The notes under the pieces are model-generated. The model worked only from the letters and a program-made list of their open reading frames with translations. It did not search any database and was not told the DNA's origin. DNA of 64,000 nucleotides, taken from Methanomassiliicoccales archaeon. Its GTDB lineage: Archaea > Thermoplasmatota > Thermoplasmata > Methanomassiliicoccales > UBA472. The stretch lies in NCBI GenBank assembly GCA_026394375.1, contig JAPKYJ010000004.1, forward strand, positions 1-64,000, in the 5' to 3' direction. Positions 1 to 60,024 of the stretch are shown here, piece by piece. The stretch's first letter is position 1. The number at the start of each line of letters is the position of its first letter. The position numbers and the translations under genes are program-made.

Positions 1-201
1 GCAACGGTCTGCGGGAAAGGCATTGGAACGCTCCTGATGGAGTAGGCCGCCGGAGACGCACAATGCGTTCTCCCCTGCCTTGCAAGCAGGAGTCAGCCGA
101 CCGAATGCGCTCCGTTCCCAGAAATGGGCGTCCTTCGCGGAACCGACCGCCAAACGAAAACTGGAAGTGCAAGCCCACGATATTAATCGTGGGTAGCTGA
201 C
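1..201 (+). mobile_element. Right end of a TnpB-family (IS200/IS605-type) element, cut by window start
   Basis: The segment ends in a palindrome at 174-193 (CCCACGAT/ATCGTGGG arms) followed by GTAGCTGAC. The same palindrome-plus-tail layout closes the intact tnpB element at 59996-60024. Positions 1-52 are almost identical to 7601-7652, and the hairpin region 53-104 keeps its folding although its sequence differs. No transposase codons are recognisable. Whether a tnpB gene lies to the left is outside the window. By analogy with known TnpB elements, the stretch upstream of the palindrome would be the omega-RNA scaffold and the guide would start near position 202. Confidence 0.65.
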
Positions 202-6528: not shown

Positions 6529-7236
6529 TCACCAGAATATCATCTTTGCCGGACCCTTCTTGTAGCTCCAGTACATCATCACGAAGTTGGCCACGCCAAC
6601 GATGATCCACAACAGAGCCCAGGTCGGGTAGGTACCGTCCACGTTGTGTCCGAAAGCGTCCTGAGCGTTGACGACCGCCTGCAGCGGACCGTGTAGCCCG
6701 CCGTAGAAGATCATGAACCACCAGGCCACGAACAGCGACAGGATCAGGTCCACCTGCAGGATCTTCGCGGAGATCTTGCCATGGATGACCAGGCCCCAGG
6801 CCGTCGCGAGGACACCAAAGACCGCCAGCCCAAGGCAGGCGTCCCACGGGAATCCAGCATTCGCCACGAAGGGCAGCATCACGAACTGCGTGAATCCGCC
6901 AAAGATCGCGGCATCTCCAATCGGTCTCCAGTCCCATCCCTTCATCGCAACGATAGCCGTGCCCAGGAACAAGAAGCCGTACAGACCGCCCGCGATAGCG
7001 AGTATCGCGAAGCCGTCGGTCCCAGGGGTCCAGACCAAGAACCACGAGAGCCCGATGAGACCAATCGCCGCGGCCAACGAGCCCATGGCTCCGATGGCCT
7101 GCTCGGGGATTATGTCCTCAGGCTTCGTTTTCTTGCTCCACCACCCGGGGCAGGCCCTTGCACCACTGCAATACAAAATCCAGTGGCACAATCCATAGAC
7201 TAGGCCAATCATTGCGAATGCTACTGCATTCACCAT
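6529..7236 (-). CDS. Multi-spanning membrane protein, UreI/AmiS-like
   Basis: 235 residues, Trp- and Gly-rich, with about seven hydrophobic helices. The stretch FLFLGTAIVAMKGWDWRP resembles the region of UreI/AmiS urea/amide channels that has a GxDWRP motif, and the C-terminal WALLWIIVGVANF also fits. An insertion near residues 30-45 (ARACPGWWSKKTKPED) is not typical. If the assignment holds it would let a small neutral solute such as urea, an amide or a short acid through the membrane. No urease or amidase gene is nearby. SD GGGGG precedes ATG 7236. Confidence 0.5.
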   Translation of the reverse strand: MVNAVAFAMIGLVYGLCHWILYCSGARACPGWWSKKTKPEDIIPEQAIGAMGSLAAAIGLIGLSWFLVWTPGTDGFAILAIAGGLYGFLFLGTAIVAMKGWDWRPIGDAAIFGGFTQFVMLPFVANAGFPWDACLGLAVFGVLATAWGLVIHGKISAKILQVDLILSLFVAWWFMIFYGGLHGPLQAVVNAQDAFGHNVDGTYPTWALLWIIVGVANFVMMYWSYKKGPAKMIFW

Positions 7237-7299: not shown

Positions 7300-7339
7300 G
7301 TATATATAAGTAGCGTTAAATTGCTTTAGTAGCGTTAAA
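7300..7339 (-). promoter_or_regulatory. TATA box and tandem 12-bp repeats upstream of the UreI-like gene
   Basis: On the minus strand TTATATATAC at 7300-7309 is a strong TATA box and predicts a start near 7279, about 43 nt before ATG 7236. Just upstream the 12-mer AGTAGCGTTAAA occurs at 7309-7320 and again at 7328-7339, 19 bp apart (nearly two helical turns). The position suggests a regulator site touching the TATA/BRE region. Confidence 0.55.
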
Positions 7340-7427
7340 AGCCAGTATGCTGAAGATTGCGCCTGCAAAAGACGATTCATTGGTCCAGAATCATAATACG
7401 CGCATTAGTAGATGGGTCGCCAGAAAA

Positions 7428-7771
7428 CCCACGAACTTTAGTCGTACGATGAATGACGACAATCTTAAACATCAGACGACCATGCATAGTACCAGGAAGT
7501 TTCCAGACACCTCGCAAGGGGTAAGGCACTCTCCGCCTGGGAGAGAAAGACCGCTGAAGCTCTGGGCTAAAACTTCATCGCTCCATCGGGCACGAGACTG
7601 GCAACGGTCTGCGGGAAAGGCATTGGAACGCTCCCGATGGAGTAGGCCGCCGTGGCAGATGCCACCCTGCTTTGCAAGCAGGAGTCAGCCGACCAAATGT
7701 AGCGTGCCGTGACACCTTGGATAAGGCCGAGCACAGTTACAAGCCCTCGATCTTGATCGTGGGTAGCTGAC
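7428..7771 (+). mobile_element. tnpB-less derivative (MITE/PATE-like) of a TnpB-family element
   Basis: Left-end-like hairpin at 7428-7448 (CCCACGA...TCGTACG), resembling the left end of the intact element at 58809-58829, then ATGAATGACG at 7449, like the first codons of tnpB. The right end is at 7744-7771 (palindrome, then GTAGCTGAC), as in copy 1 and the intact element. Only about 340 bp separates the ends and no RuvC-type codons remain. The internal 3' part matches copy 1 at 1-201. I read it as an internally deleted element that kept both ends and its RNA-coding 3' part. Confidence 0.55.
7581..7771 (+). ncRNA. Candidate orphan omega-RNA (TnpB guide RNA scaffold)
   Basis: Possible helices in order: CTCCATCGGG (7581-7590) with CCCGATGGAG (7633-7642), 10 bp; GTGGC/GCCAC at 7652-7665; CCTGCT/AGCAGG at 7666-7682; then the terminal palindrome 7744-7763. 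The element at position 1 has the same order, but its second hairpin is GGAGACGCA with TGCGTTCTCC, different bases with pairing kept. That supports a selected RNA rather than coding sequence. Length and position against the right end fit omega-RNAs of TnpB systems, in which the guide lies just past the end (about 7772 on). Transcription is not shown. Confidence 0.5.
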
Positions 7772-8040
7772 CATACACTAGACTTTTCCTGATCGAGTTA
7801 CGAACGACGGAGGACCCTCCAGCATCGGGATTCGTTTGTGCGTTGAGCGATCATTTCCGCTAGTAGTCCTGCTATCTGGATAACTTCGAACGATGCGGAC
7901 GGCGTATCCTCCACGAGGTGTTATCATCCGCCCGCAGGGAGGCATGAGTCGCAGGGCGAGACGACCGCCGCGAAGGATTGAGGATGGCTTAATGTTTGTA
8001 AATCAGAACGAGGAGCCGGTAGGAAAAGGTCTATTCGGAA
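7772..8040. other. Intergenic, no gene recognised
   Basis: About 270 bp between the mobile element and the end of the HisA-like gene. It holds short self-complementary bits (GGAGGACCCTCC near 7810) but no credible reading frame, tRNA or repeat. Confidence 0.5.
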
Positions 8041-9081
8041 TCAATCCGTAGCTAGGTATTTCGGCCTCTTCACGTCCGTCGGGGTGGGGGATATGAACCT
8101 CGTTTCCACAGGAGACCCCTCATCCTCGAACAGGTCCTCGATCAGCGGCGTGAACGGATCTATGAATGCGCCAGAGAAACCTTTCTTCTCGATGAGTTCT
8201 AGGTCTCTCTCCACCACACCTCCGCCCACGACCATAGCGACATCAATTCCCTCTAGCAACGCCAACAGCTCGGTGGATACTCCTGAACGAGTTCCAAGAC
8301 GTCTCATGTCTACCACAGCCAGTTCGTCGAAACCAAGACCCCGGAGCTTCTTGATCGCATCTATCAGGTCCGCCGGTCCCGCCCTCGGTCTTCCCCAGAT
8401 CACCCTTCCATCCCATTGCAGGCAGGGCACGCACTTGTCCGATAGCTCGTAGAGTTCCTGGAACAGACGCATCGAGGTGCATGTGGATGTATCGGCCAGG
8501 GCTCGGGCCACCTCCATTGAGAAAGCATCAAAAAGGTCCTGGTCGGTGCGGATGCCCAGGTCGAGCCAGACGTCATGCTTCTTCTTCACTAGCTCGCGAA
8601 TCACTCGGAAATTGGGTTTCGCTTCGTTCACTCCGGCCAGGTCCAGGAGCAGCAATTCGCTGGCGTTGTACCGTTGCCCAGCCACCGCCCGCCAATAGCG
8701 TTCGAAGCTGACGTGGTATTCGGTCCGTTTCAGGGAGCCGTTGTCCCAACGCACGCTCACCACCTCGGCCAACTTGATGATGGGGACGTCCACCCCTCCC
8801 AAGCTTAGGAGAGGTTTGGTGTCGACGGGGAGTATCGGAATGTGCCTGAACTTGGGAACGGAGCGTTCCTCGTCGGCCTTCTTCAGAAGGCTCTGACGGA
8901 AGGAGATCCAGTCATCCACGGAGGCAAACGTCAGGGGCACGGCCATCTTTCCACAGGACTGGCAGCGACAGCTGCCGTCATTATCGTCCACCCCGGCCAA
9001 AGGGCCGCCGAACATCAGCTTGGGGATCAGATCTCGCCCGCCGCAATGCGGGCAAGCATACACAACGCCGTGTCTCCTCAT
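8041..9081 (-). CDS. HisA/HisF-related TIM-barrel protein with N-terminal zinc ribbon
   Basis: 346 residues. An N-terminal zinc ribbon (CPHCGG at about 10-15 and CRCQSCGK at about 38-45) is followed by a (beta/alpha)8 domain that matches the HisA/HisF-related proteins of methanogens (ELLLLDLAGVNEAKPNF, DVWLDLGIR, FDELAVVDMRRLGTRSG, VAMVVGGGVV). True HisA isomerises ProFAR in histidine synthesis. This group lacks a demonstrated reaction and sits here without other his genes, so function is open. The neighbouring flavoprotein is on the same strand, 63 bp away. The zinc ribbon is the odd feature. Confidence 0.72.
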   Translation of the reverse strand: MRRHGVVYACPHCGGRDLIPKLMFGGPLAGVDDNDGSCRCQSCGKMAVPLTFASVDDWISFRQSLLKKADEERSVPKFRHIPILPVDTKPLLSLGGVDVPIIKLAEVVSVRWDNGSLKRTEYHVSFERYWRAVAGQRYNASELLLLDLAGVNEAKPNFRVIRELVKKKHDVWLDLGIRTDQDLFDAFSMEVARALADTSTCTSMRLFQELYELSDKCVPCLQWDGRVIWGRPRAGPADLIDAIKKLRGLGFDELAVVDMRRLGTRSGVSTELLALLEGIDVAMVVGGGVVERDLELIEKKGFSGAFIDPFTPLIEDLFEDEGSPVETRFISPTPTDVKRPKYLATD

Positions 9082-58805: not shown

Positions 58806-60024
58806 AAGCCCACAGGCTTTAGCCGTGGGAGGAATTGGCGGCCTTAAGTTATAAGTATATTGAAGCCCACAGGCTATATCCTCATGAATCTGACGCTCAA
58901 AGTCAAGCTCTGTACGACTCCTGAGCAATACTCCGCGCTCGTCAGAACGATGGAGCACTTCAATCTTGCTTGCGACTACATCGCTGGCGTGGCCTTTGAG
59001 TTGAAGCTCGCCAGCAAGCTCAAGATTCAGCCCACCGTCTATCGGGCCGTGCGCGAGAAGTTCGGGCTGTCCTCCCAGATGGCCGTTCGCGCCATCTCCA
59101 AAGCCATCGAAGCCTACAAGCTCGACAGGACCATCCGGCCGCACTTCAAATCGCATGGCGCGATGGTCTACGACCAGCGAATACTCAGTTGGAAGGCGCT
59201 GGACAGAGTTTCCATCCTGACCCTCGATGGACGTACCCTCGTCCATGTAGCCATCTATGACTATTTCAAAGCCAAGCTGGACAACCGCATTCGAGGTCAG
59301 GCCGACCTCGTTCTTATCGATGATGTGTTCTATCTCTGCGCCGTAGTCGACGTTCCAGATGCCGAGCCTATCGAGGTCAAGGGCGTTCTCGGCGTGGACC
59401 TGGGCATCGTGAACATCGCCGTCGATTCCGATGGAGAGACGCATTCCGGCACGGGTGTTGAAAAAGTGCGCGGCAAGACCGCAAAGCTCCGCACCGAACT
59501 CCAGTCCTGCGGCACGAAGCCCGCAAAGCGGCATCTCAAGCGCCTTTCTGGATACGAGCAGCGTTTCAGGCGCGATACCAACCATTGCATCTCCAAGAAA
59601 TTGGTGGCTAAGGCCAAGGACACCGCGAGCGCGATTGCCCTCGAAGATTTGAACGGCATCCGCAAGCGGACAACGGTTCGCAGGGCTCAGCGCAGCCGCC
59701 AATCCTCTTGGGCGTTCGACCAGCTCAGGCAGTTCATCGCCTACAAAGCGCAACTCTCCGGTGTGCCTGTCGTTCTGGTGGACCCGAGAAACACTTCCAG
59801 AACTTGCCCTTCTTGCGGCCATATCGACAAGGCCAATCGGCCAACGAGGGGTGAGTTCAAGTGCGTTCGGTGCGGCAACGCTGGCCCCGCCGACCGCATT
59901 GCAGCGGTCAACATCGCTGCAAGGGCGCGAGTCAACGCGCCCATCGTCTCGGACGGGGTTTTTAGTGGACATTTCGTTCAACCTCCAGGGACAAGCCCAC
60001 ACTCTTTAGAGGTGGGTAGTTGAC
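58806..60024 (+). mobile_element. tnpB-only IS200/IS605-family element (IS1341 type)
   Basis: Left end palindrome 58809-58829 (CCCAC...GTGGG), a second copy of AAGCCCACAGGCT at 58863-58875, the tnpB gene, and a right end palindrome 59996-60016 followed by TAGTTGAC ending at 60024. No tnpA (Y1 transposase) is present, so it would depend on one elsewhere. The tnpB stop is inside the right palindrome. Confidence 0.75.
58884..60023 (+). CDS. tnpB: TnpB RNA-guided nuclease
   Basis: 379 residues from ATG 58884 (MNLTLKVKLCTTPEQ is the family start). RuvC residues all kept: D172 in GVLGVDLGIVNIAVDSDG, E254 in IALEDLNGI and D337 in GPADRIAAVNIA. Zinc finger CPSCG (308-312) and CVRCG (327-331). The usual DxNAAxNIA is DRIAAVNIA (Asn to Ile). 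The last codons run through the right-end palindrome. Known TnpB cuts DNA next to a transposon-adjacent motif using an omega-RNA from its own 3' end. A 465-codon antisense frame is shadow. Confidence 0.9.
   Translation: MNLTLKVKLCTTPEQYSALVRTMEHFNLACDYIAGVAFELKLASKLKIQPTVYRAVREKFGLSSQMAVRAISKAIEAYKLDRTIRPHFKSHGAMVYDQRILSWKALDRVSILTLDGRTLVHVAIYDYFKAKLDNRIRGQADLVLIDDVFYLCAVVDVPDAEPIEVKGVLGVDLGIVNIAVDSDGETHSGTGVEKVRGKTAKLRTELQSCGTKPAKRHLKRLSGYEQRFRRDTNHCISKKLVAKAKDTASAIALEDLNGIRKRTTVRRAQRSRQSSWAFDQLRQFIAYKAQLSGVPVVLVDPRNTSRTCPSCGHIDKANRPTRGEFKCVRCGNAGPADRIAAVNIAARARVNAPIVSDGVFSGHFVQPPGTSPHSLEVGS

Follow-up and report, generated by a model that had tools for sequence, protein, structure and literature searches.

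We propose that the gene-less element at positions 7409-7771 of the window (the whole 64-kb stretch of DNA analysed, which opens contig C4 in a 1.73 Mb Methanomassiliicoccales genome of 31 contigs) belongs to an IS200/IS605-type lineage whose RNA strand is probably an orphan omega-RNA, used in trans by a TnpB. As far as sequence comparison goes, the target site, the end hairpins, and a complete omega-RNA scaffold are common to the element and an intact TnpB element of the same genome, and the lineage has kept the scaffold while losing the tnpB reading frame. That the window copy itself may be functional now is a weaker claim. An earlier note on this DNA had read this copy as a possible orphan guide RNA; scaffold topology, compensatory changes, and a compatible intact TnpB support that reading, while near-neutral stem variants and a damaged left-end hairpin speak against a strong form of it.

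The element is a non-autonomous one of the PATE/MITE kind, 363 bp long, on the + strand, and sits between two minus-strand genes (6529-7236 and 8041-9081). Its boundaries were set where the match between copies, aligned with their flanks, ends on either side; this match runs from directly after a TTAT motif to ...TAGCTGAC (7771). The earlier note had described both ends of a TnpB-family element without a nuclease gene between them, spanning 7428-7771. Both ends are indeed present with no nuclease gene between them; the true left end lies slightly further out, at 7409. TTAT precedes all other copies with a left end as well as both related tnpB elements. A BLAST search of the genome with 7428-7775 gave 31 matches at 16 places, comprising 6 complete copies, 5 with the left part only, and 5 with the right part only; because the partial copies sit at or near contig ends, the true copy number is 11-16. 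A fixed short target and shared ends at different sites, by which a PATE or MITE is recognised, are thus found at 16 places. The left-end hairpin is degraded in the window copy, its counterpart strands in other copies being TCGTGGG and TGGCGAC. Read as protein-coding, the element offers no more than a 121-aa ORF (7347-7712), which is due to chance and has its start upstream of the element.

Coordinates of the features discussed (window positions; the presumed guide is flanking host DNA)
Position	Strand	Feature	Basis
1-201	+	Second copy, right part, truncated by the contig start; type B stems 2-3	BLAST, copy alignment, omega model match 87-201
7405-7408	+	Target-site/TAM position, TTAG in the window copy	Copies compared
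7409-7771	+	Whole non-autonomous IS200/IS605-type element, no protein gene	Copy comparison
7416-7460	+	Left-end subterminal hairpin, GTCGCCA..CCCACGA / TCGTACG..TGACGAC	Sequence comparison
7496-7576	+	Extra 5' RNA domain (P0/P1)	Cross-genome comparison, covariation, folds
7581-7642	+	P3: 10-bp helix 7581-7590/7633-7642 around GNRA-capped hairpin P3a (7595-7610)	Sequence, covariation
7645-7649 with 7690-7694	+	Stem 1, GGCCG/CGACC, one C-A mismatch	Alignment, covariation
7652-7682	+	H4 (7652-7665) and H5 (7666-7682), hairpins inserted in the stem-1 loop	Alignment to tnpB 3' ends
7684-7689	+	Pseudoknot strand GTCAGC in the stem-1 loop	Alignment, covariation
7698-7741	+	Stem 2, TGTAGC.GTGC / GCAC.A.GTTACA, enclosing stem 3 (7715-7726)	RNAalifold, alignment
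7743-7764	+	Right-end hairpin (stem 4), one T-T mismatch in the window copy	RNAalifold, alignment
7766-7771	+	Tail GCTGAC, pairs with GTCAGC 7684-7689; final bases of the element	RNAalifold, alignment
7772-7791	+	Presumed guide position (flanking host DNA)	Genome search
58884-60022	+	Distant tnpB, 36% identical to the C10 TnpB, ORF intact	Sequence comparison
59922-60024	+	Omega-RNA-type right end of the distant window tnpB	Covariance model

The assembly breaks inside element copies (window 1-201 and the ends of contigs C1, C6, C8, C15, C23, C24, C26, C27, and C29), so that halves at contig ends may belong together. The TTTAT target on the left side of copies (7405-7408, for instance) is similar to an archaeal TATA box, and insertions may therefore land in promoters and borrow them; no promoter was identified for the element.

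The last ~129 nt of the element (7643-7771) fold like the right-end RNA of the intact 381-aa TnpB elsewhere in this genome (G000), with a stem 1 carrying a pseudoknot strand in its loop, a stem 2, a right-end hairpin, and a tail paired back. Counted from the element end, stem 1 lies at -108..-104/-94..-90, the pseudoknot strand at -100..-95, and the tail at -6..-1 in the TnpB ends and in short elements of a second genome, G043; the spacing between the tail and GTCAGC is about 95-100 nt in the TnpB ends versus 83-88 nt in the window copy. Copies C24a and C27b have GGTCG as the 5' strand of stem 1. Relative to the tnpB sequence, the gene-less copies of this genome carry H4 and H5 as an insertion whose exact place is between GGYCGCC and AGTCAGCC. 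As the earlier note had pointed out, the H4 hairpins GTGGC/GCCAC of the element and GGAGACGCA/TGCGTTCTCC of the copy at position 1 (window 52-73) are both real and both pair; a third version, GGAGA/TCTCC, is found in copy C24a, and it pairs as well.

The scaffold ends exactly where a guide should start, and the copies diverge exactly after GAC, at the right end of the element. A guide starting at about 7772 had been suggested, with a search for its genomic matches as a check; that search, allowing 3 mismatches, found nothing beyond 7772-7791 itself. Such uniqueness is expected of a flank, and is equally expected if the guide targets only the empty site.

Compensatory change was assessed in an alignment of four TnpB ends, three tnpB relics, and two gene-less elements, with one single-base gap. 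The named structure pairs in 96% of the alignment cells, against 23-38% when it is slid along the alignment, and two-sided changes affect 11 pairs where shuffled alignments average 6.4 (none of 500 shuffles reached 11). Stem 1, for example, occurs as GGTCG/CGACC, GGCTC/GAGCC, and GGCTG/CAGCC. Run on a set to which the elements of this genome belong, RNAalifold arrives unprompted at most of these helices, the long-range tail pairing among them. A covariance model of the right end, as the earlier note had recommended, was built from the TnpB ends, the relics, and the gene-less elements of G043, with no gene-less copy from the genome under study. In the 64-kb window it recovered 7679-7771 (E=1e-12), 87-201 (6e-9), and the right end of the window tnpB at 59922-60024 (7e-6), these being the three places below E=0.01, and the next match was at E 0.5. 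The model also matches loci of TnpBs just 38-44% identical, in other genera, adjoining the tnpB 3' ends where both are listed, and on this ground we consider it a valid omega-RNA model for the clade.

Which TnpB might use such an RNA? Omega-RNAs are usually, though not obligatorily, encoded in cis with tnpB. Here this is not the case, and a compatible TnpB is found elsewhere in the genome, in an intact gene on contig C10 (G000:C10:24735-25877). Its product has OrfB_IS605 and TNB domains (Pfam) and matches solved TnpB and Cas12f chains; the left end of its element follows TTTAT and has a hairpin of the same kind as that of the gene-less element, and its stop codon overlaps the right end, as is usual for tnpB. 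A second gene, on contig C19, is 87% identical but has two stop codons. Among the 147 genomes of the order, TnpBs more than 70% identical to that of C10 occur only in G000 and G043, that is, in two of the three genomes that carry the conserved core described below. The omega model by itself has matches in 14 genomes, with 13 in G000 against two related tnpB genes (one of them with stop codons) and 20 in G043 against two intact ones; orphan guides would consequently dominate the guide pool of the enzyme.

Upstream of the scaffold, the element holds a further RNA domain. The earlier note placed the RNA in the 3' part, flanked by a long 10-bp helix; the 3' part stands and the helix (in P3) pairs perfectly, but the conserved RNA begins further upstream, with a separate domain at 7496-7576 that had been missed. 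Its helices are P0 (GAAGTTT/AA(A)ACTTC), P1a (CCAGA/TCTGG), P1b (CCTC-GCAA-GGGG, with a GNRA loop), and P1c (CTCTCC/GGGAGAG). Homology to the 3' coding end of tnpB starts at ACATCG, just before P3, and P0/P1 precedes this point; none of the four TnpB-bearing right ends examined contains the domain. The P0-P3 core occurs in three of the 147 genomes of the order, G000, G043, and G047, which form two families (E 0.01, strict filters), G047 having one fossil-like copy in a genome 79% complete. An exact-pattern scan for the 5' domain across 84,980 species genomes returned Methanomassiliicoccus sp. UBA386 (the same locus as in G047) and one chance match in a coding region, and no match was found in viral contigs. 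When the families are compared, two-sided changes are seen in P1a, P3, and P3a. In one between-family comparison of P0/P1 the helix arms were picked by eye. P0 is CGGGACC/GGTCCCG in G043 and CAGGGCC/GG(C)TCCTG in G047, with its pairing register shifting across families, and one P0 pair runs through a T-A, T-G, C-G series within the genome under study. Folded singly, 11 of 11 sequences form an outer P0-type stem, with variable inner helices. Neither P0/P1 nor P3 has a match in Rfam, and on these comparisons the 5' domain is new.

The copies come in two length forms, a long one of ~360 bp and a short one without the P0/P1 region (C22, C26, C29, and C15). At two places in the element, 7519-7528 (P1) and 7613-7622 (P3), a GNRA hairpin precedes GGNAAGGCA. 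The similarity to the element at position 1 on which the earlier note had remarked is borne out, with one base different between window 1-52 and 7602-7653. The last part of the copies exists in two versions, type A (the window copy), which is similar to tnpB right ends, and type B (window 1-201), in which stems 2 and 3 are swapped for unrelated sequence and stem 2 still pairs (TGCGCTCC/GGA.AGTGCA). A search of the order outside the genome under study gave no source for the type B right end (window 86-200), only short weak matches. The free combination of modules among copies shows that copies recombine. In G043, loci L074, L077, and L080 are direct internal deletions of tnpB, with its start joined to its end; they lack the P0/P1 domain and form another kind of gene-less element, independent of the first.

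If the element yields such an RNA, how might it be maintained? The + strand would be transcribed into an RNA whose last part is a guide taken from the right flank (7772 onwards); the C10 TnpB would bind this RNA in trans, and the complex would cut empty sites flanked by TTAT. Recombinational repair of these cuts could then keep the element without any need for it to code. P0/P1, standing in place of the tnpB reading frame, would most likely be a 5' cap with a fold of its own, which lends stability to an RNA no longer released from tnpB mRNA, or fixes the 5' end of that RNA. A fuller version holds that a composite guide RNA (the new P0/P1 plus the enlarged omega-RNA, without tnpB) uses the resident TnpB in trans, and that cutting maintains the element, and perhaps spreads it, in the absence of a transposase; this we put forward only tentatively.

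The main alternative, which we regard as unlikely, is an ordinary PATE or MITE, that is, an internally deleted IS605-type element that persists solely because its ends serve as transposase substrates and whose omega-like part is a passenger derived from tnpB, any conservation stemming from the DNA hairpins. Movement of PATEs in trans is well established (PMC7290912), and the direct tnpB deletion relics of G043 and the near-neutral stem variants within the genome under study (see below) point the same way. Two further points count against an orphan omega-RNA: stem 4 and the tail are needed as DNA by a TnpA as well, and H4 and H5, beside the pseudoknot strand in the stem-1 loop, could hinder binding of TnpB. 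Against an ordinary PATE or MITE, stem 1, the pseudoknot, and stem 2 have been kept although they are not part of the end hairpins, and they show two-sided changes, one of which (pseudoknot pair 15-106, in L067) is present in a gene-less element only. Type B right ends have had the sequence of stems 2-3 replaced, and nevertheless stem 2 pairs and the covariance model matches. P0/P1, for its part, is not derived from tnpB, and is still conserved with compensatory changes. Finally, G000, G043, and G047 have tnpB genes and many gene-less elements, yet a search of these three carrier genomes for a Y1 HUH transposase (PF01797) gave no match, with positive controls and in assemblies that break at repeats.

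Another option, which we judge quite improbable, is that the internal RNA (P0/P1 and P3, each with a GNRA hairpin and then GGNAAGGCA) is the functional product and acts alone, for instance by titrating TnpB or regulating neighbours, the omega part being secondary. These two domains do hold most of the covariation of the upstream part and belong to no Rfam family, and each short form examined lacks one of the two GNRA-GGNAAGGCA modules, never both. Against this, the short forms without P0/P1 have also multiplied, which makes P0/P1 dispensable for spread, and no right end examined is without the omega part. A group I intron or IStron is dismissed, Rfam giving no match up to E=10 in 7300-7900, and so are other known RNA families, with two weak Rfam matches that are far below gathering scores and outside the elements.

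Pairs with two-sided changes are more numerous than by chance (10, against 5.3 in shuffles), while the plain single-sequence fold of the window copy is unexceptional (z=-1.5). Within the genome under study, distinct stem variants divide evenly, 16 retaining a standard pair and 16 disrupting one, where random changes would be expected to retain 35% (p=0.055). The earlier note had set compensatory change against drift: the former is seen across families, the latter, near neutrality, among the copies of this genome. These counts fit long-term selection on the lineage together with decay of individual copies. The stem-1 C-A mismatch recurs in most copies of this genome, and most copies have a damaged right-end hairpin; both kinds of damage are found in the window copy, with one mismatch in stem 1 (C-A) and one in stem 4 (T-T), besides mismatches in its left-end hairpin. 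With near-neutral stems and a damaged left-end hairpin, the window copy may already be decaying, a relic of a lineage whose RNA was selected.

Among known systems, PATEs and other MITEs derived from IS200/IS605, such as the PATE-like sequence of Halanaerobium hydrogeniformans, are likewise short and gene-less, with IS605-type end hairpins and a fixed short left target (PMC7290912). Unlike them, the present elements conserve a complete omega-RNA scaffold with compensatory changes, carry an added RNA domain, and reside in genomes where no Y1 transposase was found; by its sequence, the element is thus a PATE-like one in which the omega-RNA is conserved and enlarged and a further RNA domain is present. 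The PATEs of Haloquadratum are reportedly another example of the kind. Standalone omega-RNAs of IscB and tnpB-less IStrons are guide RNA loci apart from the nuclease gene, thought to be used in trans; they differ in having other nucleases or an added group I intron, of which Rfam found none in the window. The omega-RNA of ISDra2 TnpB has the same parts, namely a stem 1 (-116..-111/-91..-86) with the pseudoknot strand in its loop, a tail pairing beside the guide (-5..-3 with -105..-103), a stem 2, and a right-end hairpin, and its guide starts at the element end, the position presumed here (PMC10097598); it differs in being encoded with tnpB and in lacking H4/H5 in the stem-1 loop and P3 and P0/P1 upstream. 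In the archaeon Sulfolobus islandicus, TTTAT is the left-end motif of solo tnpB elements and the proposed TAM of their TnpBs, and two inverted repeats lie near the right end, as here; there, however, the omega-RNA is linked to tnpB, and no gene-less family is described (PMC10640517).

If our proposal is correct, TnpB guide RNAs can parasitise a nuclease as MITEs parasitise a transposase, and an added RNA domain may take over from the tnpB message in supplying the RNA. With their enlarged or replaced stems, the copies also amount to a natural collection of scaffolds from which the tolerance of TnpB could be learned. As for the tnpB genes themselves, the right end of the window tnpB (58884-60024) has a GTCAAC/GTTGAC pairing, and the intact C10 element lies near a sequence resembling the end of a 16S rRNA gene (L064 2200-2491).
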